Below are positions 5,348 through 60,130 of a stretch of DNA of 64,000 bases, piece by piece (position 1 is the stretch's first letter; each line of letters begins with the position of its first letter). Below the pieces are notes generated by a model. It was given only the letters and a program-made list of their open reading frames with translations. It had not been told where the DNA came from and searched no databases. A program made the position numbers and the translations under genes. Origin of the DNA: Balneolales bacterium (GTDB taxonomy: Bacteria > Bacteroidota > Rhodothermia > Balneolales > Natronogracilivirgulaceae); assembly GCA_007132495.1 (NCBI GenBank), contig SLOL01000124.1, positions 1-64,000 on the forward strand, written 5' to 3'.

Positions 5348-5421
5348 ATGCAATGCCCATGACCGGACCGGCGCCCGGACACACAGGCGCATGATAAATT
5401 ACGGTCATGGTATTACAGCTG
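5348..5421 (-). repeat. 74-bp intergenic inverted-repeat element, copy A
   Basis: This is the reverse complement of the element seen at three other places (21068, 37827, 60057). It matches copy B at 62 of 74 positions without a gap. Its ends are imperfect inverted repeats: 5348-5365 begins ATGCAATGCCCATGACCG, and the other end read inward gives CTGTAATACCATGACCG. An inner hairpin has stem CCGGGC/GTCCGG with one G-U pair and loop GCCG. It fills the comB-ftsK gap and lies antisense to the surrounding genes. Confidence 0.85.
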
Positions 5422-5448
5422 AAGTAGTAAATCAGGACATTTAGACGG

Positions 5449-7995
5449 ATGAAAAAAAGCGCAAAAAAAACCGGTGAGCCGTTCTTCTCTTACGAGCGCA
5501 AAATGGAGATGCTGGGTATTGTGATAATGGCTATCGGTATCACACTTGCGGTAAGTATCCTTACCTACAGGGGAGAAGATCTGGCAATAATAAAGAGTGT
5601 CGACTTTCGGACACTTCTTGATTTCGGACAGGGTCCGGCGTTGCGCATTCAGAATGGACTGGGGCCGTTGGGTGCCTATTTATCACACTTTTTTGTGCAC
5701 ATTCTGTTCGGTTACATATCTCTGATACTGGTAGGAGTGTTTATGTTTTACGGCTGGAATATTTTCCGGCATAATGAATTGATGTCACGCCATGTAAGAG
5801 CTTTATCCGCCATTTTCTTCATGATTCTGACAGCTTCCATCATGGGTTGGATCCACAATGAATTTGAGGCGGTACCCGAAATCTGGGCCGGAAATTCGGG
5901 GTTGGCCATAGCCCATTTCATGAGAGCGTTAACCGGACAGTTCGGACCTGTTATCATACTCGGCAGTCTGTGCCTGATCTCTCTGCTTCTATTGATCAAC
6001 AGGGATGTACAGTCGGCCATTGACCGGACCCGATCGGTTATGGCGTGGATGGGAAGTTTTTTTACGTTTAAAAGCATTCGTGATGGTGACCGGACTGCAG
6101 ATCAGAGGGGGGCGGAAAGAGATGAGGAGTGGGAGCGAGAGCGCTCCGGAGCAGAGATGAAAGCGTCTGAACGGTCGCAGAGACAGAGCATGACTCTTCG
6201 TTCTGAAAATGAGGATGAGCGAAAAAAGCAGTGGGAAAAAATGGTCTCGGCATCGCAGGAGAAAGAGGAGACGCGAATGCGGATGGAACGGGAGAATACG
6301 GCGGGAGATCAGCCACCACGGGCTGTGTTGAAAAAAGGATCTGAAGCCGGTGAATCGGCTGCAAAGAGTGACGACAAAGAGGAGGATGCCGGTACGGAAT
6401 CCCCATCCGGCGGTTCTGACCTTGATATAAAAGTTTATAAAGGGACTCCCGAAGAAGAGGCCGGGAAGCGAAAGCTGGAAAAAGAGCGAAAAAAGCAGAT
6501 GGGAAAACCGGAAATAAAATACAAGTTTCCGACACTGGATCTGCTGGATGTGGCTCCAAATGAAGGCAGTGAAGTGGATTATGAGGAGATCAATCGCAAT
6601 AAAATGATCATCCTTGACAAATTGAATCGGCACGGCATCGATATCAAAGCCATTGAAGCGGTGGTGGGTCCCACTGTGACCCTTTATGAGCTGGAACCGG
6701 CACCGGACGTAAAAATCAGTAAAATAGAAAGTTACGCCAATGACCTGAAAATGGCGATGGCTACCAGGGGGCTTCGAATTATCGCCCCGATTCCCGGTAA
6801 ATCGGCGGTGGGTATCGAAGTTCCGAACCGTAATCGGGAAGTGGTTTATATCCGGTCATTGATCAACACCCGCAAATTTGCCGAAACAAAAATGGTGTTA
6901 CCGGTAGCATTCGGACGAACCATTGAAAATGAAGTTTTCATGGTCGACCTGAGTCGATTGCCGCATCTGCTTATGGCGGGGGCAACCGGATCGGGAAAAA
7001 CGGTAGGCATTAATACGATCATCACCTGTCTGCTCTATAAGTGTCATCCTGATGACCTCAAGTTTGTGATGATCGACCCCAAAAAAATCGAACTCTCGCT
7101 GTTCCGGAATATTCAGCAGCACTTTCTGGCCACACTGCCCAATGCTATCGAACCGATTATAACCGATACGAGTGACGTTCTTCAGGTGCTGAACAGTGTC
7201 TGCAAGGAGATGGATAATCGCTACGAACTGCTCAAGATGGCGACCGTGCGCGATATCGCGTCTTATAATACCAAATACAAGAGCGGTACTCTGGAAGAAG
7301 ATCTCGGACATCGTCACATGCCGTATATTGTAGTTGTTATTGATGAACTGGCCGATTTGATGATGACCGCCGGCAAGCAGATAGAAGAACCGATTGCCCG
7401 TCTTGCACAGCTTGCCCGTGCTGTCGGAATTCATCTGGTTGTTGCCACGCAACGTCCGTCCGTCAATGTGATCACCGGTACAATCAAAGCGAACTTTCCG
7501 GCCAGAATTGCCTATCAGGTAGCTTCCAAAATTGATTCCCGGACGATACTTGATACTATGGGTGCCGATCAGCTGGTTGGAAGAGGCGATATGCTTTATA
7601 ATGGTGGTGGTGCCACAATGATCAGGCTTCAGAATGCGTTTGTGTCTACGGAAGAGGTTGAACGAATTAATGCCTATATAGGAAATCAGATCGGCTACAA
7701 TCACCCCTATTATCTGCCCGAGGTGGAAGATCCAAACAATCAGGGCGGATCACTTGACAAAAGCGAAAGGGACGATCTTTTTGAAGAGGCGGCCAGGTTG
7801 CTGGTTATGCATCAGCAGGGATCAGTGTCGCTCTTGCAGCGAAAGCTGAAACTGGGTTACAACCGTGCCGGCCGGCTTATTGATCAGCTTTTTTCAGCGG
7901 GCATTGTCGGTCCCTATCAGGGTAGTACGGCAAGAGAAGTACTGGTCGAATCGGAAGAAGAGCTGGAAGAACTATTACGTGAACTGGATGAGTAA
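5449..7995 (+). CDS. ftsK: DNA translocase FtsK
   Basis: FtsK pumps DNA through the closing septum and activates XerCD at dif. Four membrane segments lie near residues 21-40, 81-103, 118-135 and 165-184. A very acidic and basic linker (roughly 205-365, rich in Arg, Glu and Lys) follows. The motor domain has Walker A ATGSGKT near 513-519 and Walker B VVVIDELADLM near 628-638. A winged-helix gamma domain runs from about 775 to 840 (DDLFEEAARLLVMHQQ onward). At 848 residues it is a mid-sized family member. It is followed by lolA with an 18-bp gap, an arrangement I know from Bacteroidota genomes. Confidence 0.95.
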   Translation: MKKSAKKTGEPFFSYERKMEMLGIVIMAIGITLAVSILTYRGEDLAIIKSVDFRTLLDFGQGPALRIQNGLGPLGAYLSHFFVHILFGYISLILVGVFMFYGWNIFRHNELMSRHVRALSAIFFMILTASIMGWIHNEFEAVPEIWAGNSGLAIAHFMRALTGQFGPVIILGSLCLISLLLLINRDVQSAIDRTRSVMAWMGSFFTFKSIRDGDRTADQRGAERDEEWERERSGAEMKASERSQRQSMTLRSENEDERKKQWEKMVSASQEKEETRMRMERENTAGDQPPRAVLKKGSEAGESAAKSDDKEEDAGTESPSGGSDLDIKVYKGTPEEEAGKRKLEKERKKQMGKPEIKYKFPTLDLLDVAPNEGSEVDYEEINRNKMIILDKLNRHGIDIKAIEAVVGPTVTLYELEPAPDVKISKIESYANDLKMAMATRGLRIIAPIPGKSAVGIEVPNRNREVVYIRSLINTRKFAETKMVLPVAFGRTIENEVFMVDLSRLPHLLMAGATGSGKTVGINTIITCLLYKCHPDDLKFVMIDPKKIELSLFRNIQQHFLATLPNAIEPIITDTSDVLQVLNSVCKEMDNRYELLKMATVRDIASYNTKYKSGTLEEDLGHRHMPYIVVVIDELADLMMTAGKQIEEPIARLAQLARAVGIHLVVATQRPSVNVITGTIKANFPARIAYQVASKIDSRTILDTMGADQLVGRGDMLYNGGGATMIRLQNAFVSTEEVERINAYIGNQIGYNHPYYLPEVEDPNNQGGSLDKSERDDLFEEAARLLVMHQQGSVSLLQRKLKLGYNRAGRLIDQLFSAGIVGPYQGSTAREVLVESEEELEELLRELDE

Positions 7996-8013
7996 TTTCT
8001 CGGGAACAAAAGA

Positions 8014-8661
8014 ATGTTGAATTTAAAATGGTTGGTGCGGTTTCCCATTACCTCCCTGATGGGGGTTTTGACGGTTTTATTTCTGATAACAGGTTCTTCG
8101 CTGTACAGCGAAAAACCTACAGAGCTTGATCAGGTTCGGGATCGGTTTGCCGACGGAAAAGTTCTGCATGCCGGCATGATCCATGAATTTACAGACTCTT
8201 ATACCGGTGAAGTCGAGCTTACCGAAGGGGAGATCTGGATTTCAAAAGCACAATACAAGGTGAGGGCGGATGAGCAGGTGGTCGTGGTAGACGGTTTATT
8301 ATCAAGAGTATATAATGCACAGCAAAACAAACTGGTGATCAGCGAATACGAACCGGAAGAAGATGACTTTGCACCCTCGCGTTTTTTTTCTGAGACAGAT
8401 GAAATATATCAGGTGGCTGAGGTTGTCCGGGATGAGCAAACCACGTCATTCATATTACATTCCGAAGATCCTTTTGAGTTATTCCGTGAGGTGACGATTG
8501 TACTGGATCGCAACCTGGTTCCCCTTGAGATAACGGCAGTTGATCAGATGAGTAATCGCATCAAAACGACCTTTACGGATGCCGGGTATATGGAAGAGGT
8601 TGGAGGAGTCTTTGAGCTGGTGTATCCGGACGATGCCGAGATCATTGATTTGCGTAAATGA
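8014..8661 (+). CDS. lolA: LolA-like outer-membrane lipoprotein carrier
   Basis: LolA is the periplasmic chaperone that carries lipoproteins from the LolCDE transporter to the outer membrane. The 215-residue product begins with a hydrophobic export signal (about residues 8-30). The mature part has the LolA pattern of an open beta-barrel (GEVELTEGEIWISKAQYKV near 68-86, then VVVDGLLSRVYNAQQNKLVISEY). It lies directly behind ftsK and ahead of a UPF0104 membrane protein. A lolE-like permease occurs elsewhere in the window (23395-24627). Similarity is by pattern only, so LolA-like is the safe name. Confidence 0.78.
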   Translation: MLNLKWLVRFPITSLMGVLTVLFLITGSSLYSEKPTELDQVRDRFADGKVLHAGMIHEFTDSYTGEVELTEGEIWISKAQYKVRADEQVVVVDGLLSRVYNAQQNKLVISEYEPEEDDFAPSRFFSETDEIYQVAEVVRDEQTTSFILHSEDPFELFREVTIVLDRNLVPLEITAVDQMSNRIKTTFTDAGYMEEVGGVFELVYPDDAEIIDLRK

Positions 8662-8667
8662 TTCGGT

Positions 8668-9717
8668 ATGATTAAAAAATATTTTCGATTACTGGCCGGC
8701 ATTTTTATTGCCATCCTGTTTTTGTGGCTTGCCCTGAAAGATGTTTCCCTGTATGAGGTACGTCTGACCATGGACAAGATGACCTACTACTGGATCATGC
8801 CTTATTTGCTGGTTTCATTATTCAGCCATTATATACGTGCTGAGCGGTGGAAGCAGCTTATAGAGCGGGATGAAATATCAACAAGCAGGACAACACTGTT
8901 CAGTGGCGTCATGCTCGGATATCTGATCAATTATGCCGTGCCACGACTTGGCGAGGTTTCCCGTTCTGTTTATGTCGGAAATTTGGAGGGAATCAGCCGG
9001 ACCCGTCTCATGGGAACAGTTGTGTTGGAGCGGTTTTTCGATCTTCTGGTGATGCTTCTGCTTATGTTGTTTGTCGCTTTTTATTTTCTCAGGGACTATT
9101 CCCTGATCATTGCGGTTTTGGGGACTGATACGGTTCGCTGGTTGAAAGCTTTATGGAGTCCGGACGGAATGCTTGTTATGGGACTTGCCGTAACAGGAGC
9201 AGTATTGCTTCTTGTCGCGGCCTACTACCTGTTTTTATGGATCAGTAGATGGTTGCCTTCGGTTTTGAACATGATCAATACCCTTAAAGATACGGCTACG
9301 AAATTTTTTCAAGGGTTGATGAGCATCAGGGAGATCAGGAATTGGCCTCTGTTTATTCTGTTCACAGCCGTAATATGGTTATGTTATATACTCATGACCT
9401 ATATTCCATTTACGGCATTTGGGATGCATAATGAATTCGGACTGGGTCTACAGGAAGCGCTGGTTATCACGGTTATCTCGGCATTGGGAGTAGCCCTCCC
9501 GTCACCGGGCGGCATCGGTACGTACCACTGGTTTGTGAGCCGGTCACTACTCCTGCTTTTTGCAGTTCCGGAAGCCGTTGGTATTGCTTATGCAATTGTT
9601 ACACATTTGGTGATGATGATCATTATTTTGACAGCTACACCGGTTATTCTCGCTTTCAACAGATTGATTCGCTCCCGTGATGAAATGACAATCCGGCGTG
9701 ATGGACAAAAAAATTAA
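8668..9717 (+). CDS. UPF0104 / lysylphosphatidylglycerol synthase TM-domain protein
   Basis: The 349-residue protein has about eight membrane helices. It carries the family marks VPRLGEVSRSVYVG near residues 91-104, a conserved VVLERFFDLL near 115-124 and PSPGGIGTYHW near 275-285. The family (PF03706) includes the flippase part of MprF and AglD-like proteins. Stand-alone members lack the aminoacyl-transferase part and probably move a lipid or lipid-linked substrate across the inner membrane. The substrate cannot be told from sequence. It starts 6 bp after lolA, which suggests co-transcription with ftsK-lolA. Confidence 0.85.
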   Translation: MIKKYFRLLAGIFIAILFLWLALKDVSLYEVRLTMDKMTYYWIMPYLLVSLFSHYIRAERWKQLIERDEISTSRTTLFSGVMLGYLINYAVPRLGEVSRSVYVGNLEGISRTRLMGTVVLERFFDLLVMLLLMLFVAFYFLRDYSLIIAVLGTDTVRWLKALWSPDGMLVMGLAVTGAVLLLVAAYYLFLWISRWLPSVLNMINTLKDTATKFFQGLMSIREIRNWPLFILFTAVIWLCYILMTYIPFTAFGMHNEFGLGLQEALVITVISALGVALPSPGGIGTYHWFVSRSLLLLFAVPEAVGIAYAIVTHLVMMIIILTATPVILAFNRLIRSRDEMTIRRDGQKN

Positions 9718-9798
9718 TGAAATTTTAATTAAGCCTGACATTTTTCAGCAACTGATACGTTTACACTCTGTTTCGGCCTCATATTGAAGAAAAACCCA

Positions 9799-11529
9799 AT
9801 GCGTCCCATTTCCTCATTATTCCCCTATTTACTATTTGCGGGTCTTGTAATTGCCGCTCCGGCAATGGCCCAGCAGGATGGTGAACCCGCATCCCTTTTA
9901 CCCGATATTGATCCGCAGGATATTGAAATACGTGGCGATTTTCAGGTGCGTTTTCCGGGCCTGTCACGTCAACCTATCCTGGGTTTCAGTCCCAGGACGC
10001 CGGTATACCGGGTGGATCCAGACCGTATGCCCTATATGGAGTCCGATGAAGAGATCGTGGCGGCGATTCCCATCAGCGACCTGGAGCCGGCACTCAAGCC
10101 GGAGCAACAATTCATTGCATTCGCTGATCAGCGTCAGGTTTTTGCAAGAACCGGCCTGGGGACCTATATGAGCCCGGAGCTGAAATTTATTGCCGAAACG
10201 CCGATTCGGGATAATGAGAGCCTGGCACTGGATATCGGTCACCATTCATCAGAAGGGGATCGTGAATACAGCTCCTTCCGGAACCTGGGTGTGGATTTGC
10301 AGTGGACGAGGCGATCGGGAAATCATCGCTGGGGGTTGGGAGTCACCGGCCGCTCCTCCTTCAACTATTCACCTTTTCCGATGGATACCCTGTCAAATGG
10401 ATCGATCGATCCGGAACAGCTTGTTCCACAGCTTATAAGCCACAGCGCCTTTGGTATTGAGGGTCGCTGGCAGCATCTTGAGCACGCCTACCGGGGATGG
10501 CAGACGGCGGTATCGGTGAATCGATTCGGCAATGAAGGTGAGCGGTATATCGATGAAACCATCACCAGCAACGAAACAAGGTTCGGAATACAGGCCAACC
10601 GGTTTTGGGAAGGCGGTCAGATGGAGCAGGTATTTGGTTTAAGAGCCCGTTCATCAGGAGCCATATATGATACCATGGATGACCATTCCCAATACTGGCT
10701 GACTAATACCATTGGTGGCCGTTACCGTCAACTTTTCGGCCACTCTCATCAGGTTGAAGCGTGGTTGCGCATATATCAATTGTACGATATTGAAAATGAA
10801 TTTGATCTTTTTCTCTATCCCGACATTCAGTACCGATATCAAGGTACCGGAAGGGTATCGGCCGGAATACGGGTGAGAGGATTTGTCAATGATCCATCGC
10901 TGGAGCGCATGAATCGCAAAAACCGTTTTTTGATGCTGCAAGATAATGATCTGGAGCATGAACGGGGTTTGCATATCGGCCTGCATTCCGATATAGAATT
11001 GGGCAGTGACCTCAAAGCATTTACCGGTCTTGACTATTGGCAGTATTATAATCTTGGCTATTTCGGGTTTTCCGAAGATCCCCTCTCACCTTATTACGCC
11101 TTTCACTATACTCAGGAAGCGATACATGTTGAGTGGTACCACGGTGCAACCTATTTTTATCCGGCACTGCGTACATCAGCAACACTTGAGGCGGGGCTGA
11201 ATTTTTCAACAGCAGCTGAAGAGGATATTTCAACCGGTGAAATTCCGTATCTTCCCAGATGGAAAGTGTCTGCTCAATTTATGACCAAGCCGTTGCAACA
11301 GCTTGATATTTCCACATGGTTGGATTACAGAAGTCAGAGAAAAACGGCTACCGGAGAGGATGCCATGGATGGTTATGTACAACTTGGCATGCAAACGGAT
11401 TTTCGCGTTCACCAGAATTTCGGGGTATATGTCAAGGCGCTTAATATTCTTAATCAGGATTACGAAGTGTGGCAAAACTATCAAGAACGGCCCTTCCAGA
11501 TTTATGGGGGTGTAACTTTGCATTGGTGA
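9799..11529 (+). CDS. Outer-membrane beta-barrel protein, TonB-receptor-like, no plug
   Basis: A signal peptide (SLFPYLLFAGLVIAAPAMAQQ region) is followed by about 550 residues dominated by alternating aromatic and polar beta-strands. The protein ends in the typical outer-membrane terminus with a final Trp (IYGGVTLHW). The strand pattern and the ending NILNQDYEVWQNY...RPFQIYGG resemble the C-terminal half of TonB-dependent receptors, but I see no plug domain or TonB box. I chose the ATG at 9799, preceded by GAAGAA, over the TTG at 9784, which would add five residues. ExbB, ExbD and TonB genes follow two genes later, so it may be a client or partner of that system. Specific function unknown. 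Confidence 0.72.
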   Translation: MRPISSLFPYLLFAGLVIAAPAMAQQDGEPASLLPDIDPQDIEIRGDFQVRFPGLSRQPILGFSPRTPVYRVDPDRMPYMESDEEIVAAIPISDLEPALKPEQQFIAFADQRQVFARTGLGTYMSPELKFIAETPIRDNESLALDIGHHSSEGDREYSSFRNLGVDLQWTRRSGNHRWGLGVTGRSSFNYSPFPMDTLSNGSIDPEQLVPQLISHSAFGIEGRWQHLEHAYRGWQTAVSVNRFGNEGERYIDETITSNETRFGIQANRFWEGGQMEQVFGLRARSSGAIYDTMDDHSQYWLTNTIGGRYRQLFGHSHQVEAWLRIYQLYDIENEFDLFLYPDIQYRYQGTGRVSAGIRVRGFVNDPSLERMNRKNRFLMLQDNDLEHERGLHIGLHSDIELGSDLKAFTGLDYWQYYNLGYFGFSEDPLSPYYAFHYTQEAIHVEWYHGATYFYPALRTSATLEAGLNFSTAAEEDISTGEIPYLPRWKVSAQFMTKPLQQLDISTWLDYRSQRKTATGEDAMDGYVQLGMQTDFRVHQNFGVYVKALNILNQDYEVWQNYQERPFQIYGGVTLHW

Positions 11530-11534
11530 ATCAT

Positions 11535-11729
11535 ATGGCACAAAACAATACAGAACGGGAGATTGCAGCGATCATTTCCGGAGCATTGAAACAGCACCGG
11601 GAGGTTACGGTAAGGGGATTCGGCACCTTCACGGTTCATCATAACAGGCAAGAGCATCGACAGGAGAAAGATGGTCGTATTTTAATGGCACCGCCGTCCG
11701 ACGTCATAACTTTTACCCCTGAAAAATGA
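11535..11729 (+). CDS. Short HU/IHF-like DNA-binding protein
   Basis: The 64-residue product keeps the core of HU: a helix (IAAIISGALKQHREV), the GFGTF turn near residues 27-31 and a basic arm region (RQEHRQEKDGRILMAPPSDVITFTP). It is shorter than the usual 90 residues because the first helix and the last helix are missing. I start it at the ATG at 11535, just after the barrel gene stop. A longer frame reaching back to 11469 would overlap the barrel gene and adds no HU sequence. Its stop overlaps the next start (ATGA at 11726). It may bind DNA, or it may pair with the HU domain of its neighbour. Confidence 0.7.
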   Translation: MAQNNTEREIAAIISGALKQHREVTVRGFGTFTVHHNRQEHRQEKDGRILMAPPSDVITFTPEK

Positions 11730-12856
11730 GGAATGGTATGAGAATGTCTCATGATGATCTGGTATTGTTACTCGCCGAAACCCTGAATGCTGAACAGGAA
11801 AAGGCGGAAGAATTTCTGTCAGCCTGGATACAGTCGGTTAAAACGGAGGCTTTGGAGAAAGGTGAATATCATGTTCCCGGGCTCGGGACTTTTAAGGAGG
11901 CTGACGGCAAGCTGGTTTTTTCGCCGGAAGATGAGCTGGCTGTAGAGGTTAACTACAAGTATGCCGGTATGAAACCCATCGAAATCATGTCGGCATTCAG
12001 CAGTAGGCAAATACAGGAGGAAGATCATAAACAGCCGGAGGAGGTTGAACCGGTTTCTCCGCAAAAGAAAGGATTGGATGCCGAAGTGGAGGAGCCCGGG
12101 ACCGAAGAAGAGGAACTGGAAACCGGTAAAAAGGATGAGAGCGGCAAAAGCTTTGAAGATGTGTTTGGTGTGGATTCATCGGAGGAGACCACCCCAGAAA
12201 CACCGGATCCGGTGCCGCCTCCGTTAGCTTACCAAACACCGGAAACAGAGCCTGTTGGCGTATCCGGATCCGGAAGAAAAGAGACTGCAGAAAAAAAAGA
12301 GATGACGGCTACCGCCGGAAAACCCCCAAAGTCCGGCAAGAAACCGGCTTCAGGTGAGAATCAGTCCCGGGTGTGGATGCTACCCATTGCCGCTGCATTT
12401 ATTTTAGCGGTTATGCTCTATTTCCATTTTGAGGGCCATCTGCTTCATCGGCAGTACACCGAAGAAGCGATGGTATCCGATACCCGTTCGGAAGCCCCCG
12501 GGGAGACCGGGATAGGTTCGGAGCCTATGGAACACCGTATTGAGGCTACTCCTGAAGAAGAGGCAGAAGCGGAGGAGCTTCCCTATGGTCTGATGGGTGC
12601 GGAAGAGGAGTTGCTCATCGGATCCTATACGATCGTACTCCACTCCATAGCCAATGAAAACAGAGCGCGGATTGAAATGGAAAATCTGATTGACGAGGGC
12701 TACAAGGCAACCTTTTGGCAAGCACAACTCGGCAATGGCGAACATACCTGGAGGGTAGGTGTGGGACAGTTTGAAACGGTATCGGATGCTGAAAATGCAA
12801 TTTCCCGTTTACCGGAACCCTATCGAAGCAATAATTTTATCATCAGAATTCGTTAA
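11726..12856 (+). CDS. HU-CCDC81 and SPOR domain membrane protein
   Basis: This 376-residue protein joins three parts. The N-terminus (about 5-95) is an HU-like domain of the CCDC81 type (LVLLLAETLN..., GLGTFKEADGKLVF). The middle is a long Glu/Pro-rich cytoplasmic linker, ending in one membrane helix (MLPIAAAFILAVMLYF near 218-233). The C-terminus (about 295-376) is a SPOR domain (YTIVLHSIANENRARIEMEN...). SPOR domains bind denuded septal peptidoglycan. The fusion is known in Bacteroidota; its role is not established. Three in-frame ATG codons (11726, 11738, 11744) could start it. Its place between a barrel gene and the ExbB/ExbD/TonB genes points to envelope or division work. Confidence 0.82.
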   Translation: MRNGMRMSHDDLVLLLAETLNAEQEKAEEFLSAWIQSVKTEALEKGEYHVPGLGTFKEADGKLVFSPEDELAVEVNYKYAGMKPIEIMSAFSSRQIQEEDHKQPEEVEPVSPQKKGLDAEVEEPGTEEEELETGKKDESGKSFEDVFGVDSSEETTPETPDPVPPPLAYQTPETEPVGVSGSGRKETAEKKEMTATAGKPPKSGKKPASGENQSRVWMLPIAAAFILAVMLYFHFEGHLLHRQYTEEAMVSDTRSEAPGETGIGSEPMEHRIEATPEEEAEAEELPYGLMGAEEELLIGSYTIVLHSIANENRARIEMENLIDEGYKATFWQAQLGNGEHTWRVGVGQFETVSDAENAISRLPEPYRSNNFIIRIR

Positions 12857-12890
12857 CCCATAGATAGTAACACTAACCAATCAGGATTTC

Positions 12891-14023: not shown

Positions 14024-14024
14024 T

Positions 14025-14843: not shown

Positions 14844-14927
14844 ACGGATATCTCTGATATCACGGATCATTTCTGCTGAGCAGTTACAGATGTTCTGGAG
14901 TTGGGGTGGTCGGGTTTGATCAACAAC

Positions 14928-17438: not shown

Positions 17439-17563
17439 GATTCAACAGGTTTGGTAAAAATTTGCGGCTCTCGGCCAATACAAGACAAGTTTTTCAATTA
17501 TTGACAGAGAAAAACCAGGATACGGCTTTTTCGGTTGTTACAGGTACAAAAAGTAAAAAAAAA

Positions 17564-18454: not shown

Positions 18455-18463
18455 TTGCCGTTC

Positions 18464-21067: not shown

Positions 21068-21141
21068 CAGATGTAATGCCATGACTGTATTTAATCATAC
21101 GCCTGTGTGTCCGGGCGGATGCCCGGTCATGGGCATTTTAT
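21068..21141 (+). repeat. 74-bp intergenic inverted-repeat element, copy B
   Basis: This copy matches copy D at 66 of 74 positions and copy C at 63 of 74, without gaps. The outer arms ATGTAATGCCATGACTG and, read inward from the other end, ATAAAATGCCCATGACCG pair imperfectly. The inner hairpin is CCGGGC-GGAT-GCCCGG. It lies between the CDF gene and the universal stress protein gene, on the same strand as both. A spurious ATG inside it extends the stress-protein frame upstream. Confidence 0.85.
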
Positions 21142-36054: not shown

Positions 36055-37098
36055 TTAACCTGGAAATGGTCCGGCAAAGGAGTCCAGTGTAGCGACAACT
36101 GATTTCGTCAGTTCAACGGATTGATCGATATCGCTTTTGGAGGCGGTTTCAACGGTACTGTGAACATACCGGGTGGGCACCGAAATGCACGCAACATGAG
36201 CACCAACACCTGTGAGATATTGCATCGCAGGTGTGTCCGTACCACCGGCGGTCAAAACTTCTCTCTGTAACGGTATGTTATCAGATTCTGCAATGGATTC
36301 AATATGTGATACCAGCTGTGGAGAGGATATCACACTTCCGTCCATAATCTTGACAGCAGGCCCCTTGCCCAGTTCCGTTATTTTTTTCTGAGCAGCCACA
36401 CCGGGAATATCATTAGCGATGGTAATATCCAGGGCTATCCCGATAACGGGTTTCAGACGTTCAGCCGCTACCCGGACACCCCGTAATCCAACCTCTTCCT
36501 GTACGGTAAATACGGCATGCAGGGTAATGCCGGAGGGGACTACAGCCTCCCTTATCGTCTCAATAAGTGCATATACAGAAATCCGGTTGTCGAGTGCCTT
36601 CCCGGTAACCATATCACCCATTTCTATACAGCTTCGGTCACGTACAATGGGCGTTCCGACGGGTACGAACTCTTTAACCTTGTCGACCGGAAGACCAACA
36701 TCGACAAACAAATCATCGGGTGATGGAGTTTTCTTTTTTTCCTCATCTGTGAGAACATGTGCGGGTTTGCCACCGATGACGCCGGGAAGATTCTTTTTGC
36801 CGAGTACCGTTACCCGCTGGGCAAACAGGGTTCGGGCGTCAAATCCTCCCAGGGTGTGGAAGCGAATGAAGCCCTGGTCGTCAATATATGTTGCCAGAAG
36901 TCCGATTTCGTCCATGTGCGCCGCAAACATGACACAGGTATCACCGTTTCCCCTGGTGGCAACAAGGTTACCCATGACATCGGTGGTAATACTGTCCACT
37001 CTCCCCGATAGCTCCTGTGTTATCAGGGTCCGGATCTTTTGTTCAAATCCGGGAATACCCGGGGTACCCGCTATTTTTTTGAGAAGTTTAAAATTCAT
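36055..37098 (-). CDS. M42 family metallopeptidase (glutamyl aminopeptidase-like)
   Basis: M42 enzymes are large, two-metal cytoplasmic aminopeptidases that finish peptide breakdown. The 347 residues show metal-binding [10 protein letters not shown] near 59-68, [11 protein letters not shown] near 168-178, the catalytic QEEVGLRG near 200-207, [19 protein letters not shown] near 287-294 and PTRYVHS near 309-315. The start overlaps the purQ stop by 4 bp (ATGA), so the two are translationally coupled even though their functions differ. Confidence 0.92.
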
Positions 37099-37799
37099 GA
37101 ATTCACTGCATAAGACAAATTGTCAATAACGGAGTTGAATAAAAAGCGTCCGTGGTCCGAGCCCAGACGTTTTTCGACGGCCCGTTCGGGGTGAGGCATC
37201 ATCCCCACGACATTTCTGCTTTCGTTACAAATCCCGGCGATATTACCGACCGATCCATTCGGATTTGATTCTGGCGTAATATTTCCGTTTGCGTCACAAT
37301 ACCGGAATACGACCTGATTCCGGTCCAGGAGTTTTTTATACAGTTCATCATCGGCATAGTAATTACCTTCACCGTGAGCCACCGGCATACGGAGAGTTTG
37401 GGTATCAGGGACAGAACCGGTAAACGGGGTGTTCCGCGATTCGCATTTGAGATGAACGAGTTTGCAGGTAAAACGAAGTTGTTCGTTGGCCATCATGGTA
37501 CCAGGCAAAAGCCGGGCTTCCAGCAGAATTTGAAATCCGTTGCAAATACCGAGAACAGGTCCACCGCCGGAAGCAAAATCGGCGACGGCATTCATAACCG
37601 GTGAAAAGCGGGCGATAGCACCGCTTCGAAGATAATCTCCATATGAGAAACCGCCGGGGACGATAATGGCATCTACGCTTCCGATTTCGGTTTCTTTGTG
37701 CCAGATAAAGGTTGTGTCTATTCCATGTATATGTTTCAGTGCATGATATGCATCATGGTCGCAATTGGATCCTGGAAAAACTAATACTCCAAATTTCAT
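37095..37799 (-). CDS. purQ: Phosphoribosylformylglycinamidine synthase subunit PurQ
   Basis: PurQ is the glutaminase subunit of the three-part FGAM synthase (PurL, PurQ, PurS) in purine synthesis. The 234 residues start with [19 protein letters not shown]. The nucleophile elbow [12 protein letters not shown] has the catalytic cysteine near residue 87, and MPHPERAVE near 200 carries the His and Glu of the triad. PurS is encoded upstream on the same strand with repeat copy C between them. PurL is not in the window. Confidence 0.95.
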
Positions 37800-37826
37800 G
37801 TGTTTATAAATTTTGTTTCAAGCGGT

Positions 37827-37900
37827 CACATGTAATGACATGACCGTATTTAATCATACGCCTGTGTGTCCGGGCACATGCCCGGGAATGGATATATCAT
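37827..37900 (+). repeat. 74-bp intergenic inverted-repeat element, copy C
   Basis: This copy matches copy B at 63 of 74 positions without gaps. Its right arm (37884-37900) has drifted, so the outer stem is weak, but the inner hairpin CCGGGC-ACAT-GCCCGG is perfect with a different loop. It lies between purS and purQ, antisense to both. About 26 bases just upstream (37801-37826) also resemble the sequence upstream of copy D (20 of 26, counting the shared CGGTCA). Confidence 0.85.
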
Positions 37901-42456: not shown

Positions 42457-42460
42457 ATGG

Positions 42461-45415: not shown

Positions 45416-45540
45416 TGAAAAGCGGGCGTTGTTTGGGCGAGAGATTCAGGTTCTCGGATGAAAATCATGCCTCTGTGTGACGGGTTGCAGTCATGGCCCT
45501 TTCATCAGTTTTGCAGTCATTTTCGTGCCGGAATCAGAAT

Positions 45541-47964: not shown

Positions 47965-47988
47965 TAAATACAAAGACGAGTTATCTGC

Positions 47989-50550: not shown

Positions 50551-50560
50551 CGAGAATCCT

Positions 50561-51130: not shown

Positions 51131-51285
51131 GGGAGCCTTTCTGAGTACATTTCCGGGAAGTGCCTGTTATTTGATTGGCATTTAAATTGTTACGATTCAT
51201 AATTACTTAAAATTTTATGTATACCTTCATTCAAGGCATGGGGTGTTAAACATAGTAAAGTTACTAACTGATAATAGATAACATT

Positions 51286-53018: not shown

Positions 53019-53048
53019 GGTATTTTGCGTGAATGATCGGGAGTCTGT

Positions 53049-53378
53049 CTACTTGAGTCCGAAGTTTCCAAGATCCATGCCGCCGGGAAGCATCCCCTTG
53101 GTAATCTCACCCATTTTCTCCTGACCCGCCTCTTCTGCTTTCTTAAGTGCCTGGTTGACTCCGGCAATGATAAGATCCTCCAGCATTTCAGTATCATTCG
53201 GATCAACGACATCTTTGTCCAGTTTGATGGAGGTTACTTCGCGATTGCCGTTGGCGGTAACCTTGACCATGCCGCCGCCCGCTTCGGCCTCCACCTCCAC
53301 GAGGTGAAGCTGCTCTTTGGCTTCTTCCATCTTTTTTTGGAAATCGGTTAATTTGCCAAACATATCTGCCATATTCAT
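53049..53378 (-). CDS. ybaB: YbaB/EbfC nucleoid-associated protein
   Basis: This is a small dimeric DNA-binding protein of the nucleoid. The 109 residues show the family's pattern: MFGKLTDFQKKMEEAKEQL at the start, VEAEAGGGMVKVTANGNREVTSIKLD in the middle, and DLIIAGVNQALKKAEE toward the end. It sits between dnaX and recR, the normal place for this gene. Confidence 0.94.
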   Translation of the reverse strand: MNMADMFGKLTDFQKKMEEAKEQLHLVEVEAEAGGGMVKVTANGNREVTSIKLDKDVVDPNDTEMLEDLIIAGVNQALKKAEEAGQEKMGEITKGMLPGGMDLGNFGLK

Positions 53379-53463
53379 AATAGACTCCGGGAGTTTCTGT
53401 GGATGTTAATGTGTTGCAATCAGTTGTGGCTCAAATTCGTATGCCGGGCAACTTAAAGTGCTT

Positions 53464-55359
53464 TCAATATTCAAGTTCGGCTCCGAACAGATCCACGATT
53501 TGCCGCAATTTGGGATCTTTCTTTTGTAATTTTAAAAAATGCTCATAGGGATCATGAACGGCATCGGTACGTTTTTGATTTTCTACAAGCCGTGAGGTAA
53601 AACGCAAAGCATACCCGAAATGTTCTCTGAGGGTGTCACACAATTTACGGTTATGCTCACGAATGATATCGGATGTAAAGCTGTCGCTGCACTCCAGTGT
53701 GACGATTCCTTCCGCCAGTTCAACCGGTCTGGTTTTCTGCATCGTAAAATAGAGCATATTACTCGCTGTTTCCTGCAGCTTGTCAAGGTAATCGGACCAT
53801 ATCCCAAGTATATCGTCCAGGCTCTCCGCCTCTTTCATTGAAGGACGTGAGGGCAGCCGGCTTTCTGTGCCCGGGTGGTTTTTTTCCGAAACCGGGCCGG
53901 GTTTGGGAGAAAGGGCCAGGTTTCCGCGAATTTCATTGTTACCTGTGGATGCATTGGTTTTTCCCGGAATAGAAACGGCCTTCAGGTGATTTTGGGATTG
54001 TTTCAGCGTGGGCGTTCCAAATATATTGGAAGTTCCCTGAACGTCTTGATTCCTTTCCGGGGAATCAGGTGAAGGAGCGGCAGGAGCGGATTCGTAACCT
54101 CCACGGGTAGCGGTGTGATCATAAGAAGGCTTTTTCTCTTCCTGTACAGTGGAAGGTGTGGTGTTAGGGGTGCGCTCTTCCGCTTTGACTTTCTTGGAGG
54201 ATTGCGTTTTCCCCAGCGCGTCCGGATTGCCGGAATGTGCCGACAGCTTCTCCTCCAGATCACGAAGTTTGCGGAGCAGGGCATCGAGTCCGTCACTCCG
54301 GGTCATGTGGAAAAGTTTTAAAAGAGTGATTTCCAGATGGATGCGTGGTTGCTGGGCATCGCGAATGGAAAATTGTGCCTCATGCATAATATGCATCATG
54401 CGCATCAGATCGTCTTCGGAAAAGCCTTCAGCCGTTTTTTGGAAACGCTGTTTTGATTCGTCAGTAGCTTCGATGAGGTAAAAGTTCTGGGAGTCTTTTG
54501 CCAGATAGAGGTTCCGGAAATGTTCTGTGAATGCGCTGATAAATTCCTGGATATCGTTTCCGATATACAGCAGATTGTGAAGCAGGGCCATGCCGGCGCG
54601 GGTATCCTTGTGGGTGAGGGCGTCGGTCAGCTCAAACATGCGTTCCAGACTCACGATATTCAATGCCCGGTGAAGCTCTTCATAGGAGATCGTGGTACCG
54701 CAAAAGGCGATGGCCTGGTCCAGTATGCCCAGGGCGTCCCGAAGTGCGCCATCCGCCTTTTTGGCGATGACGTGCAGCGATTCCTTGTCGATGTCGATAT
54801 TCTCTTTTCGGGAGATGTCATCCAGCCGTTCCACAATTTCATCCACAGTGATACGCCTGAAATCGAATCGCTGGCAACGGGAAAGGATTGTAGGGAGGAT
54901 GCGGTGGGGCTCGGTGGTGGCAAAGATAAAAATGACATGCTCGGGTGGTTCTTCGAGCGTTTTCAGCAGGGCATTGAAGGCCGATTTGCTGAGCATGTGG
55001 ATCTCGTCAATGATATAGACTTTGTAGCGTCCGTTTTGCGGCGGAATGCGGACCCTTTCCCGCAGTGTTCGGATATCCTCAACACTGTTGTTGGATGCCG
55101 CATCGATCTCAATAATATTCAGTGTGTTGTTTAAAGCCTCTCCGTCCACATTCTCGTCTACTTCGTTTATGGTCCTGGCCAGAACACGGGCCATGGTGGT
55201 TTTTCCAACTCCACGGGGACCGCAAAACAGATAGGCATGACTTAGCCGGTTCTTTTCAATCGCATTCTTGAGTGTGTTGCTGACATGTTCCTGGGAAACA
55301 ATGTCATCAAAGGTCTGAGGTCGGTAAATGCGGGTTAATGCTTTGTAATTGGTGGACAT
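53464..55359 (-). CDS. dnaX: DNA polymerase III subunit gamma/tau
   Basis: DnaX is the clamp-loader ATPase. The 631 residues show Walker A GPRGVGKTT at 47-55, DAASNNSVEDIR near 86-97, Walker B VYIIDEIHMLS and the sensor block FATTEPHRILPTILSRCQRFDFR. A low-complexity linker (about 355-500) leads to a C-terminal tau part. Unlike most DnaX, the zinc module right after Walker A is gone: between ARTINE and IIEIDAAS there is no cysteine at all, where four are usual. No obvious A-rich slippery heptamer for gamma formation is visible. It leads dnaX-ybaB-recR. Confidence 0.95.
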   Translation of the reverse strand: MSTNYKALTRIYRPQTFDDIVSQEHVSNTLKNAIEKNRLSHAYLFCGPRGVGKTTMARVLARTINEVDENVDGEALNNTLNIIEIDAASNNSVEDIRTLRERVRIPPQNGRYKVYIIDEIHMLSKSAFNALLKTLEEPPEHVIFIFATTEPHRILPTILSRCQRFDFRRITVDEIVERLDDISRKENIDIDKESLHVIAKKADGALRDALGILDQAIAFCGTTISYEELHRALNIVSLERMFELTDALTHKDTRAGMALLHNLLYIGNDIQEFISAFTEHFRNLYLAKDSQNFYLIEATDESKQRFQKTAEGFSEDDLMRMMHIMHEAQFSIRDAQQPRIHLEITLLKLFHMTRSDGLDALLRKLRDLEEKLSAHSGNPDALGKTQSSKKVKAEERTPNTTPSTVQEEKKPSYDHTATRGGYESAPAAPSPDSPERNQDVQGTSNIFGTPTLKQSQNHLKAVSIPGKTNASTGNNEIRGNLALSPKPGPVSEKNHPGTESRLPSRPSMKEAESLDDILGIWSDYLDKLQETASNMLYFTMQKTRPVELAEGIVTLECSDSFTSDIIREHNRKLCDTLREHFGYALRFTSRLVENQKRTDAVHDPYEHFLKLQKKDPKLRQIVDLFGAELEY

Positions 55360-55654
55360 CTCGGTCGGAATATAGGGTGTCTGGCACGGTCAAAAAAGGT
55401 GGCTCGGCAATTCTCCGGCCGTATGGGAATCGGATACGGCAAGGTATCATTTCCCTGCGTTCATTTAACGTTCAATTTAATAAAATGTTTACTTTCTATC
55501 CATGCAGGAACCCGTCTCGATGACCCGTAACCGGTCACATCGGCATATGAATTTTAATTCATGCCATTCGGTGCGTGATTGCTTTCTTTCTGATGATCTG
55601 TGATCGAACTGTCGGTCAAAATTGTTGATTGACAGGGATAGCGCATGAAGAGAG
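55360..55654. other. 295-bp gap between pepP and dnaX with two inverted repeats
   Basis: No gene is supported. An inverted repeat at 55610-55634 (TGTCGGTCAA and TTGATTGACA around AATTG, with two G-U pairs) lies 20 bases after the pepP stop and may be its terminator, though no T-run follows. A second hairpin at 55542-55565 (GGCAT, bulge, GAATT-TT-AATTC, ATGCC) is AT-rich. The rest should hold the dnaX promoter, which I could not pick out. Confidence 0.5.
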
Positions 55655-56980
55655 TCACCAGGCCATCACATGTTCAATTTCATGGCGGGATTTGGGAACC
55701 GTGGTCAGATTTTCAATGCCGTCCTCACGGACTATGACATTGTCTTCGATACGTATGCCGCCAAAGTCGAACAGCTCTTCAAGACGATCGGCATTCAAAT
55801 GACCGGCATACTGCTCATTCCGAAGAGCGGGCTGCAGCAGTGCCGGGACAAAGTAGAGGCCCGGCTCTATGGTGAGTACCATTCCGGCTTCAAAGGTTCT
55901 GCGTGCCCGCAGGAAACGGAGTCCCGGCCGGTCGATCTTGTCGGTTCCTTTGGGGTAGCCGCCGACGTCATGGGTGTCGAGACCAAGGAAATGGCCGAGG
56001 CCATGCGGGAAAAAGAGGGCGAAAACGTTGGCGTCCATGAGTTCATCCACGGTACCGCTGATTAAGCCCAAATCGGACAGACCCTTAACCACGATCCGGG
56101 CAGCCTGCAGGTGAAGCTCTTCCATTTTGTTGCCCGGCCGAATCATGTTGAGGGTTGTGGTCTGTGCTTCGAGGACAATATCGTACAGGTCCGCCTGCAT
56201 CTGTGAGAAGGATCCGTTAACCGGGCAGGTACGGGTGATGTCGGCTGCATACCCTCTGTATTCGGCACCGGCATCCACCAGAAAAAGATCGCCCGGATTG
56301 AGCATTTCCTGATTTCCGGTGTAATGCAGTATGGCCGAGCTGCGTCCGGATGCAAATATCCCGGAATAGGGAGCATGAACAAGACCGTTGCCGGTAGTGT
56401 GGCGTTCAAAAATGGCCTTCATTTCAAATTCCCGGGCTCCCGGATTTACAGACTGCATCACTTCGAGGTGCGCCTGGTTGGTAACCGCTGCCGCCTTTTT
56501 CAACAGTGAGAGTTCCCCATCCGATTTTATGACACGACAGTAGGCGATGGCATCCTGCAGCTCGCCGGTTTCAGGAGAGGCACCGAGCGAACGGATATCC
56601 TCTTCAGCACCGGGGAGACAATGCACCTTCTCCGGCGCCACTTTTTTCAACCAACCGGATACCTCGTCGTCGTAGATTATGTGATCGGGATCGTGGGCTT
56701 TCCGGTAGTCCTGAGGCGACTGCACATATCCCATCCAGACAGCGTACCGGGAACTTCTGCGGGGAATGACCAGTGTATATTCACCGGTGCCGCAATGAAA
56801 GAAGGCGGCCATGTCGGGTTCATCCACACCTGTCAGATAGAGGAAGTTGGACTCCTGGCGGAAGGGGTATTCGTAGTCCGTCCCGTAGCGGTGTGTAACG
56901 GATCCTCCCTTCAAATAAACCAGGCTGTGCTTATCATCGGCTAACAGGGTAAGAAGTCGTTTTTGATGGTTGCGATACAT
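55655..56980 (-). CDS. pepP: Xaa-Pro aminopeptidase (M24 family)
   Basis: The enzyme removes an N-terminal residue before proline. The 441 residues have an aminopeptidase-P N-terminal domain (YEYPFRQESNFLYLTGVDEPD near 33-53). The pita-bread catalytic domain follows, with metal ligands in LVDAGAEYRGYAADITRT (two Asp), HGLGHFLGLDTHD (His), LTIEPGLYF (Glu) and GGIRIEDN (Glu). All five ligands are intact. It is 21 bp downstream of the orphan HsdR-N gene on the same strand. Confidence 0.95.
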   Translation of the reverse strand: MYRNHQKRLLTLLADDKHSLVYLKGGSVTHRYGTDYEYPFRQESNFLYLTGVDEPDMAAFFHCGTGEYTLVIPRRSSRYAVWMGYVQSPQDYRKAHDPDHIIYDDEVSGWLKKVAPEKVHCLPGAEEDIRSLGASPETGELQDAIAYCRVIKSDGELSLLKKAAAVTNQAHLEVMQSVNPGAREFEMKAIFERHTTGNGLVHAPYSGIFASGRSSAILHYTGNQEMLNPGDLFLVDAGAEYRGYAADITRTCPVNGSFSQMQADLYDIVLEAQTTTLNMIRPGNKMEELHLQAARIVVKGLSDLGLISGTVDELMDANVFALFFPHGLGHFLGLDTHDVGGYPKGTDKIDRPGLRFLRARRTFEAGMVLTIEPGLYFVPALLQPALRNEQYAGHLNADRLEELFDFGGIRIEDNVIVREDGIENLTTVPKSRHEIEHVMAW

Positions 56981-57001
56981 ATTGTGTGACTATTTGCAGG
57001 G

Positions 57002-57919
57002 TTAACCGGTTGTCAGAATCGTATCCAGTGATTCAGACAGTCTGTATGGAAACGGATCGTTCATACAGGCTTGCGGCATGTTGTCCGGTTCGTTCCAGAT
57101 TTTTTCGATCTCCAAAATATCCGGAGTAATAATATCGTCATTTCCGGTTTGAAATAATTGCGGGGAATGGAATCCGCCCTTTGCATCCAGCATGATTCTC
57201 AAACATGCGATATTTGATTTTTTCTGATTGGCAATGGCACATAGTGCCGCTTCATTTTTACCGAGAGCGATAACAGAGAGAGCGATAAGCGTATCGGTGC
57301 GCCGGGGTGAGGGTGAAATGAGATAGTAGTGCGATAGAGGCATGCCGTCGTGTGGAAAAGAGAGGGGAATATAGCTGCATGTCTCCGATGATTTGTGAAA
57401 CAACCGGGACAGGTATTGGGAAAAAAGTGTGGCGACAGGTCGTTCCATGTTTTCCGGAAGGAAACCACGTTCCATCCAGTATTTCGGGTCGGTGTTGCAG
57501 AAGCTTGTCACCTGTTGCAGTTCGGAAGGATAGTCTTCGAAGTCAAGAGCCCGGAGCGTTTCAGATACATCAAACAGGGCATCCTGGAGACCGTTTGTCA
57601 ACAGAATATAGGGTGCCTTGACAAACCGGTTATATGTAGCCGACTGGGTAGCGGTATCAGAGCCCAGTGAAACACGTTCCGCCTTGCACTCGATAAGAAG
57701 CCAGGGTTGGAACTGTTTGTTGTAGCACAGCAGATCAGTGCGTCCCCGGGAGAAGCGGGAGGGTATCGGGCTTTCCACGGCAATACGTGATGAAGGGACA
57801 TCACTTTGCAGCAGGAGGTAGTCAAGGAATCGCAGCCGCACCAGTTCTTCCGGCCGAAACTTAAGCGGTTGTTTTTTCACAGGGTTCCATAACATGCGGC
57901 TGCCGTTCCGAAAAACCAT
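57002..57919 (-). CDS. Orphan type I restriction HsdR N-terminal-like protein
   Basis: The product resembles only the N-terminal nuclease domain of HsdR. KFRPEELVRLRFLDYLLLQ, then GRTDLLCYNKQFQPWLLIECKAE with the Asp and Glu-x-Lys of the PD-(D/E)xK fold, and YILLTNGLQDALFDV follow in the usual order. The helicase part of HsdR is absent, and no HsdM or HsdS genes are nearby. Stand-alone copies are common in Bacteroidota and their role is unknown. I start at the ATG at 57919. The frame is open to a TTG at 58009, and a TTG at 57961 is possible, since relatives have some residues before this Met. Confidence 0.72.
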   Translation of the reverse strand: MVFRNGSRMLWNPVKKQPLKFRPEELVRLRFLDYLLLQSDVPSSRIAVESPIPSRFSRGRTDLLCYNKQFQPWLLIECKAERVSLGSDTATQSATYNRFVKAPYILLTNGLQDALFDVSETLRALDFEDYPSELQQVTSFCNTDPKYWMERGFLPENMERPVATLFSQYLSRLFHKSSETCSYIPLSFPHDGMPLSHYYLISPSPRRTDTLIALSVIALGKNEAALCAIANQKKSNIACLRIMLDAKGGFHSPQLFQTGNDDIITPDILEIEKIWNEPDNMPQACMNDPFPYRLSESLDTILTTG

Positions 57920-58284
57920 TCGGGGGAAATGAGGGGTTGCTATGGATCGGATCAGATTCAATATCAGCGGTTTAAGCCACAAAATAGAAAAACCGGAAGT
58001 ACAGTCCAATTTGGGATAATGGACAGTGAACTTCCTGAAAGCTCTTCGAGAAAAAGTTGATGACGGGGATGGGAAATCGGCCAGCGATTTTATTATTCTT
58101 TAGCTTTGCAGAATGCCGATCTGTATCCGTATCTTTAGGCTCGCTTAAGTCAGTATTTGTTTTTTTATTGAAAACCGAATCCGGTCAAGGATTTGCAGAA
58201 ATGGACCATTCGGGTAGAGTTGAGAATTTTCAGATCGTGTGAATTCTGGCCTTGAAGGCTGCTGCGGTCGACGACAGTTTCAAT
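57920..58284. other. Gap between the HsdR-N-like gene and the Na/Pi cotransporter
   Basis: No further gene is supported. Part of it may belong to the 5' end of the HsdR-N-like gene if a TTG start is used. The rest is the divergent promoter region, including the promoter at 58105-58137. Confidence 0.5.
58105..58137 (+). promoter_or_regulatory. Bacteroidota-type promoter of the Na/Pi cotransporter gene
   Basis: TTTG (58105-58108), 21 bases, then TATCTTTA (58130-58137) fits TTG, 19-21 bases, TAnnTTTG with one mismatch. Transcription would start about 140 bases before the ATG, leaving a long leader. Confidence 0.5.
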
Positions 58285-59988
58285 ATGACATACAATTTAT
58301 TTGATTTCCTGCAGTTGATTGGATCCCTTGGGATTTTCATCTACGGGATGAAGATATTCAGTGAAGGGTTGCAGAAAGTGGCAGGCGGCAAGCTGCGAGG
58401 TATTCTTAAGGGGATGACGACCAACCGCCTGACCGGCATCGCCACCGGTTTCAGCGCAACGGCAATCACACAATCGTCAACCACCACAACGGTCATGGTG
58501 GTCAGTTTTGTGAATGCGGGACTGTTAACCTTTCTGGAATCCACCGGCGTTATTATGGGGGCCAATATCGGCACTACAATAACGGCCTGGATGGTCTCCA
58601 TATTCGGGTTCCGATTTCAGATAACGCCGATAGCAGTTAGTTTAATCGGTATTTTTTTCCCCTTTCTGTTTGTCCGGAACACCAAAATGAAGCACGTTGC
58701 GGAAGCGATGATCGGCTTCGGTATTCTTTTTATCGGACTTGAGTTTATTAAGGATGCGGTCCCGGATATTCAGGAAAATCCGCAAATTCTCGCATTCCTG
58801 GATCGGTTTACTGATTTTGGATTCGCTTCTACTGTTTTGTTTGTGGTGGTCGGTACGGTTCTTACGCTGCTTACGCAGTCTTCCAGTGCGGCCATGACGA
58901 TTACCCTTGTGATGCTTGCCCAGGGCTGGATCACATTTCCCATTGCGGCGGCCATGATACTTGGGGAGAATATTGGAACGACCATTACGGCCAACCTCGC
59001 GGCGTTAATCGGTAATGTGCATGCCAAGCGGGCAGCCCGTTTTCACTTTTTCTTTAATATAATCGGGGTCTTATGGATGCTGGCACTGTTGCCTGTATTC
59101 ATGAACTTTGTGGATGCCATGGTTATCAACTTTTCACCGGAGCATCTCTCTGTGCTGGACGATTCTCCGGAAGCCCGCATCAACGCCACACTTGGGCTGT
59201 CCCTGTTCCATACCACATTCAATGTACTGAACGTGCTGGTTCTCTTTGCTTTTGTACCGCTGTTGATCAAACTGGTTACCTGGTTGCAGCCGTCACGCGG
59301 CAAGGAAGATGAGCAGAAGTCGCTGAAATATATCAGCGGCGGATTAATGCCGACTGCCGAGCTTTCTATTGACGAGGCATATAAAGAGGTCGAAATTTTG
59401 GCCCGGGTAACGGAAAAGATCAGTTTCAGCACGTATGGTCTTTTCTTCAAGGGAAAAGAAAAACAGCAGGGATTCCTCGATAAAATCAAGAAACGGGAAG
59501 AGATCACCGACCGGATTGAGCTTGAGGTGTCGCAGTATCTGACCAGTGTCTCGGAATTCAACCTGTCAAAAACCGCATCACGCCGGGTCCGGAGCATGTT
59601 GCGGATGATCAATGATCTGGAACGGATTGCCGATATCTATTATCAAGTTTCCAGAACCTTTGAACGGATGGTCTCGGAGGGGGTTTCCATGCCTGAAAGT
59701 GCCAATACGGAAATTCAGGATATGATGCAGCTGATTCAGGATGCGCTTCAGCTGATGCGGAAAAATATGGAGGGAGAATACGGTGATGTGAATATGCAAG
59801 AGGCGGAACTGATGGAGGCCAAAATAGATTCACTGCGTGACGAGCTCCGGGAGTCACATTATATGCGACTTGAGCGGGGAGACTATGACGCCAAGGCGGG
59901 TATTTTTTATCTTGATTTTATTAACCGGCTTGAAAAAATCGGCGATCACATTCTGAATGTGAACGAAGCTACCGCCGGCCTGAAATAG
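58285..59988 (+). CDS. Na/Pi-cotransporter II family protein
   Basis: This is a membrane phosphate carrier with a regulatory tail. From the ATG at 58285 it is 567 residues. Two inverted repeats contain the QSS motifs: ATAITQSSTTTTVMVVSFVNAG in the first and TLLTQSSSAAMTITLVMLAQG in the second, with GANIGTTITAW and GENIGTTITANLA. After about residue 340 comes a PhoU-like helical domain. The direction of transport is not certain for bacterial members; efflux has been proposed for some. A TTG at 58252 would add eleven residues. The terminator and repeat copy D follow. Confidence 0.92.
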   Translation: MTYNLFDFLQLIGSLGIFIYGMKIFSEGLQKVAGGKLRGILKGMTTNRLTGIATGFSATAITQSSTTTTVMVVSFVNAGLLTFLESTGVIMGANIGTTITAWMVSIFGFRFQITPIAVSLIGIFFPFLFVRNTKMKHVAEAMIGFGILFIGLEFIKDAVPDIQENPQILAFLDRFTDFGFASTVLFVVVGTVLTLLTQSSSAAMTITLVMLAQGWITFPIAAAMILGENIGTTITANLAALIGNVHAKRAARFHFFFNIIGVLWMLALLPVFMNFVDAMVINFSPEHLSVLDDSPEARINATLGLSLFHTTFNVLNVLVLFAFVPLLIKLVTWLQPSRGKEDEQKSLKYISGGLMPTAELSIDEAYKEVEILARVTEKISFSTYGLFFKGKEKQQGFLDKIKKREEITDRIELEVSQYLTSVSEFNLSKTASRRVRSMLRMINDLERIADIYYQVSRTFERMVSEGVSMPESANTEIQDMMQLIQDALQLMRKNMEGEYGDVNMQEAELMEAKIDSLRDELRESHYMRLERGDYDAKAGIFYLDFINRLEKIGDHILNVNEATAGLK

Positions 59989-60019
59989 TTTACCGCCCGG
60001 GAGATACCGGACGGTAAAC
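59988..60019 (+). terminator. Hairpin at the end of the Na/Pi cotransporter gene
   Basis: GTTTACCG-C-CCGG, loop GAGATA, CCGG-A-CGGTAAAC is a 12-bp stem with one mismatch, starting at the last base of the stop codon. It is followed by ACATTTTATC, a weak U-rich tract. It is probably the end of this transcript. Repeat copy D begins 38 bases later. Confidence 0.6.
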
Positions 60020-60056
60020 CACATTTTATCTGTATATAATTTTTGAATCACACGGT

Positions 60057-60130
60057 CAGATGTAATGCTATGACCGTATTTAATCTTACGTTTGTGTGAC
60101 CGGGCGGATGCCCGGTCATGGACATTTCAT
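60057..60130 (+). repeat. 74-bp intergenic inverted-repeat element, copy D
   Basis: This copy matches copy B at 66 of 74 positions. The inner hairpin is longer here, TGACCGGGC-GGAT-GCCCGGTCA, because the base before CCGGGC is A. The outer arms ATGTAATGCTATGACCG and ATGAAATGTCCATGACCG (read inward) pair imperfectly. It lies between the convergent Na/Pi cotransporter and baeRF-like genes. A spurious ATG frame begins inside it, as in copy B. Confidence 0.85.

Follow-up and report, generated by a model that had tools for sequence, protein, structure and literature searches.

The described systems closest to the repeat considered here are the IS200/IS605 insertion sequences with their non-autonomous derivatives (PATE type) and the REP/BIME/REPIN repeats with RAYT (TnpA-REP); a guide/target layout has been described for both IS200/IS605 and REP (PMC6006769, PMC8266576), and REPs are 21-65 nt long with a GT[AG]G guide (PMC6006769). 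The element shares with IS200/IS605 and PATE-type sequences a fixed short target at one end, one orientation, small copies without a transposase, a hairpin with a possible guide sequence at its foot and head-to-tail arrays at the target. It differs in that no tnpA gene or larger relative with its ends was found, in having one multi-stem structure instead of two separate subterminal hairpins, and in its excess at start codons. Like REP/BIME/REPIN families, it occurs as dozens of small structured copies in the intergenic DNA of each genome, shows mosaic modules and is presumably mobilised in trans; unlike them, it is longer, has no GTAG/GTGG guide, occurs mostly in carriers without RAYT, and has an ATGAA insertion site defined through empty sites. 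Classical MITEs with terminal inverted repeats and target-site duplications (Correia elements, NEMIS) are likewise small, non-coding, dispersed and intergenic, whereas this element lacks terminal inverted repeats and its edge repeat is a constant pentamer, not the copy of a variable target. HEARO/IscB omega-RNA elements insert beside an ATGA-type motif and have a structured RNA at their edge; the present element differs in having no Rfam HEARO match and no TnpB, the IscB search being one without a positive control. Finally, leader RNAs and riboswitches resemble it in standing directly 5' of start codons, with a covarying fold and the start codon in a helix, but not in its unrelated downstream genes, polymorphic presence and empty sites.

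The window, meaning the whole 64,000-nucleotide stretch of DNA analysed here, comes from the genome of Balneolales bacterium GCA_007132495.1 (93% complete). The four gap-free 74-bp copies reported in the initial annotation held up, coordinates included, as did the identities counted there (A/B 62, B/C 63 and B/D 66 of 74), to which A/C 57, A/D 58 and C/D 61 can be added. The 74-bp length did not: printing the flanks of many copies shows that conservation runs ~33 nt past one end, and the 74-bp boundary falls within a hairpin (in copy A, it is the 5' arm of stem P4, 5416..5421). In full, the unit comprises ~102 bp and a shared ATGAA (ATGAAATG...CA(C/G)-ATGAA), or ~107 bp with both edges, and ends in ATGAA. 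On the strand opposite to that first read, it runs ATGAAATGnnCATGACCGGGC....GCCCGGaCACACAGGnGnATGATTA....GTCATGnnCATT.CATSTGAC-(variable)-TTTAAACASATGAA. Its 3' edge is ATGAA in 144-145 of the 145 copies with a 3' ATG, and conservation drops after it; the size minus one ATGAA is 95-104 bp in most units and about 90-125 bp across subfamilies. What had been taken for imperfect inverted repeats at the ends are internal stems, the edges themselves being ATGAA pentamers in direct orientation. In the window there are four complete or nearly complete copies and a single fragment, with the parts of copy A placed from sequence and model structure unless otherwise indicated:

5348..5454, + strand: copy A, full element, sense (covariance model E 3.4e-10)
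5352..5363, + strand: copy A, 5' arm of stem P1 (AATGCCCATGAC)
5363..5378, + strand: copy A, hairpin P2 (CCGGACCGGCGCCCGG)
5379..5398, + strand: copy A, conserved core (ACACACAGGnGnATGATTA type), common to all subfamilies in an alignment of 43 diverse copies
5404..5414, + strand: copy A, 3' arm of stem P1 (GTCATGGTATT)
5416..5421, + strand: copy A, 5' arm of stem P4 (CAGCTG; family CATSTG)
5446..5451, + strand: copy A, 3' arm of stem P4 (CGGATG; family CASATG), which includes the ftsK start codon
21042..21141, - strand: copy B, away from start codons (model match E 2.8e-9)
37794..37900, - strand: copy C, full element (model match E 6.7e-11)
about 45459..45505, - strand: copy E, decayed 5' fragment of a related unit (ATGAAAGGGCCATGACTGCAACCCGTCACACAGAGGCATGATT; nhmmer positions 1-53, E up to 1e-4)
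60024..60130, - strand: copy D, full length (model match E 9.6e-13)

The genes ftsK and purQ have copies A and C, respectively, as their immediate 5' leaders: each copy ends in an ATGAAA that is the start of the gene (ftsK, ORF 5449-7995 on the + strand, with FtsK domains found; purQ, ORF 37095-37799 on the - strand). Both had been described as antisense to transcription, which is true on the strand first read; on the other strand they are sense leaders ending at a start codon. Since the argument from orientation against a leader RNA was read on that first strand, it fails for A and C, and 52 of 80 insertions across the family stand at start codons. Copies B and D are at no start and have damaged 3' ends, with the 3' ATGAA lost in both: in copy D, which lies between convergent genes, it has decayed to ATAAA, and in copy B the 3' end (TTTAAACASATGAA) is gone, so the final bases of the model match are loose. 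The view that all copies are intergenic stands for A, C and D but not for B, which overlaps 35 nt of a universal stress protein family ORF beginning with GTG at 21107; the true start of this ORF is probably further in. Copy E gives a weak covariance model match (E 1.2).

The number of copies in the host genome (3.37 Mb, 223 contigs) is far above chance: BLAST gave 42 matches and a pattern search two more, at least 44 copies in total, while reversed-pattern controls gave none. The large dispersed family that had been predicted from four copies is present. When one pattern was run over 84,980 species genomes, among which the window's own genome or a very near one may be absent, all 50 matching stretches lay in MAGs of Balneolales/Balneolaceae, the majority from the CSSed and DLM isolate series. 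The covariance model matched 17 of 20 family genomes, with 3 matches in one carrier and 14 to at least about 30 in the others; outside the family, 9 of 109 genomes of the order had 1-15 matches, and one genome there (G026) has a single copy, at the start codon of an epimerase gene. Searches for carriage on phages, plasmids and viral contigs found no match for the element, and Rfam gave no match above gathering score in the window and chance-level matches only in five loci. The element was nowhere described in the literature searched, most subscription papers being outside the reach of these searches.

This is, with high confidence, a mobile element with ATGAA as its target, in agreement with the mobility first proposed for it. 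Neither of the two outcomes named in the initial annotation as speaking against mobility, a total of just four copies or a lack of empty sites, was seen. Empty sites were found in relatives at seven loci: purQ, aroQ, L072, mdh (L082), L065, L084 and L080. The purQ site is occupied by copy C in the window and empty at the orthologous position in L099, and the aroQ site is occupied in L022 and empty in L117; at aroQ, the upstream frame has its stop overlapping the start (ATGA), a stop that is kept by the edge of the element. In genus g9, a search of 11 genomes with joined flanks from nine sites recovered contiguous flanks with best identities of 92% (L072), 91% (mdh, L082), 89% (L065), 81% (L084) and 72% (L080, where the upstream flank is too diverged for a clean alignment). 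The alignments read flank-ATGAA-gene when empty versus flank-ATGAA-element-ATGAA-gene when occupied, and close species differ in whether the element is present. Neighbouring units within arrays are nearly as unlike as random units (median identity 0.79 vs 0.75, with 2 of 42 neighbours above 0.95), which argues that arrays grow mostly by serial insertion.

These boundaries do not fit the MITE-like reading of the initial annotation. A MITE with terminal inverted repeats was rejected on the edges, ATGAAATG... and ...TTTAAACAS-ATGAA, which carry ATGAA in direct orientation. Target-site duplication of the MITE type was also rejected: the edge pentamer is nearly invariant, and at L072 the relative's empty site is ATGAC, whereas both occupied edges are ATGAA.

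Insertions are concentrated at the starts of genes. With each array taken once and flanks joined in script, 80 insertions could be classified: 52 at a start-like ATG, 22 at other non-coding sites, 5 inside a frame and 1 in another frame, making 6 in coding DNA, the start class following a simple ORF rule instead of annotated starts. A further 62 arrays were excluded because they were partial, lay at the edge of a locus or lacked ATGAA. Control ATGAA sites in the same 683 kb, drawn from loci fetched because they bear the element, comprised 198 start, 284 non-coding, 299 in-frame and 1238 other-frame sites. The ratio of start to other non-coding sites (52:22 vs 198:284) corresponds to an odds ratio of 3.4 (p = 4e-6), and that of non-coding to coding insertion to an odds ratio of 20. 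The genes downstream have unrelated housekeeping functions, such as ftsK, purQ, rmlA, plsX, mdh, dapB and aroQ. An insertion at the start of a gene is in most cases damaging; because the edge of this element reproduces its target, it can land on a start codon with the protein intact. The element is a mobile sequence that turns into a leader, and within one genome it can replace the sequence just upstream of the AUG in dozens of genes that are unrelated. Judging from this position, it may affect translation; if so, these genes would be a natural experiment on the effect of a standard leader in a little-studied group.

Covariation supports folding of the element. Among 120 distinct copies, the three-stem structure has changes on both sides in 14 of 20 pairs, cells with both sides changed number 116 vs 44 +/- 5 in shuffles, and pairing cells amount to 92% in the structure vs 25-47% in slid versions, all on an alignment that was fitted to the model and so leans towards the structure, with relatedness inflating such counts. 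The compensatory changes bear out the earlier proposal that structure is kept rather than sequence. Stem P4 encloses the AUG, and its S position (CATSTG/CASATG) is G-C in 51 copies and C-G in 32, vs G-G in 26 and C-C in 9; it is paired (C-G or G-C) in 83 of the 128 copies with a readable 5' arm.

Our best explanation is a non-autonomous ~102-bp element that targets ATGAA, serves as a start leader and moves as a single strand in an IS200/IS605- or REP-like way, a statement to which, taken whole, we give an even chance of being right. The element inserts in one orientation at ATGAA (TTCAT on the other strand), leaving one ATGAA at each edge. Where the target is a start codon followed by AA, the gene retains its start and reading frame, which allows the insertion to be tolerated and kept, and gains a new 5' leader, the element, with a fixed A/T-rich stretch before the AUG (TTTAAACAS-AUG). 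It most likely moves as single-stranded DNA, as IS200/IS605 or REP elements do: on the TTCAT strand, the target pentamer flanks the left end, with a second TTCAT at the right end, and a guide-like CASAT directly 5' of the long hairpin foot could pair with the target pentamer. The enzyme would probably act in trans, and may have been lost from the carrier genomes or gone unrecognised in them. CASAT does pair with TTCATSTG, with covariation at S; the strand asymmetry, however, favours the opposite, gene-sense strand, on which G-U cells number 105 vs 32 A-C (54 vs 28 without one pair), an excess that is mild evidence against the guide/target strand because the model was built on the gene-sense strand. 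One large subfamily also has an A-C mismatch in the guide-target pairing on the TTCAT strand.

In searches for a mobiliser, the host yielded no match to the Y1/RAYT family (PF01797), nor did G007 (98% complete, 20 contigs) or 9 of the 10 genus g9 genomes, all carriers, and no RAYT gene flanked by repeats was found in the host genome (93% complete); the earlier remark that the window has no REP-type transposase thus extends to the host genome. TnpB (PF07282) was found in 0 of 20 genomes, with positive controls that worked. For IscB (PF14239; 0 of 21 genomes) and Y2 of the IS91 type (PF04986; 0 of 20 family genomes), control genomes were equally without a match, so these counts are not evidence of absence. 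Reverse transcriptase (PF00078) occurred in 5 of 20 genomes, the host not among them. Inspection limited to repeats and end sequences at 35 left-end loci revealed no larger autonomous copy bearing these ends, and none appeared as split ends in 1.08 Mb of fetched DNA. Because the element failed the enzyme tests that could be run and the REP guide test, it is not filed as a member of IS200/IS605 or REP. Nearly complete carriers without a recognisable mobiliser offer a concrete search target.

Y1 genes do occur in the family. An IS200-type element in G003 (L137) and G017 (L138), genomes of two family genera, is 98% identical over 559 bp; as a mobiliser it was rejected, being an ordinary IS200 with ends unrelated to the element. 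Three family genomes without the element (G005, G006 and G009) have Y1 transposase genes, which most carriers do not.

The least unlikely alternative keeps the same anatomy and assigns movement to other machinery, for example RNA-mediated target-primed copying of a sense RNA that ends in ...AUGAA, a rolling-circle HUH enzyme or another recombinase. It would suit the apparent folding of the gene-sense strand, the tandem arrays and the carriers without a Y1 enzyme, which are the majority; reverse transcriptase, however, is absent from the host and most carriers, and Y2 (IS91-type) had no match in 20 family genomes in a search without positive control. More broadly, and doubtfully, these could be a class of minimal mobile elements specific for the start-codon sequence itself and moved by machinery beyond the known HUH, TnpB/IscB and reverse-transcriptase systems, each recipient gene being given a standard leader and initiation region.

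Two further readings appear improbable. The repeat could primarily be a selected cis-regulatory leader (a regulon-like RNA), with P4 around the AUG controlling translation and mobility having spread the regulon; the 3.4-fold excess at start codons over other non-coding sites (52 of 80 insertions), a P4 that encloses the AUG and covaries, and the presence of the element at plsX in both G000 and G002 all point this way. Yet the downstream genes serve unrelated housekeeping functions, closely related species differ in having the element, about a quarter of the classified insertions fall in non-coding DNA off starts, and Rfam has no match. Lower still, we place an ordinary REP/REPIN family with a transposase gene that has been lost or left unassembled: many intergenic palindromic copies and mosaic modules are what such a family would show, and other REP families are suspected to lack their tnpA gene (PMC6006769), but the 43 diverse copies aligned have no GT[AG]G at the hairpin foot, and a ~102-bp unit that folds into several stems and inserts at a fixed pentamer is unlike a REP.

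Some copies carry an extra internal module (...CACTTCGTGACCTTCGGTT...), which makes the family mosaic. Short ORFs that overlap at ATGA and form a relay within the element, visible by eye in 107-bp units, were rejected, as the relay is broken in 102-bp units. Mosaic inserts inside the element occur at L187-L193 (G007) and L011-L014 (G000), with modules CACTTCGTGA(C/T)CTTCGGTTCAT and CGCTTACGCGTTTCACTGGGC. G003 also has a 211-bp repeat, 98.6% identical between G003:C4:286986 (L172) and G003:C16:21408 (L185), with the element's left end (TTCATGTGTTTATAA) and a different body. Lastly, TTTAWACASATGAA is found without the remaining element at L171, L177, L183, L186 and L189, more commonly than the reversed-pattern control; these left-end-only sites may be truncated copies or a native initiation context.
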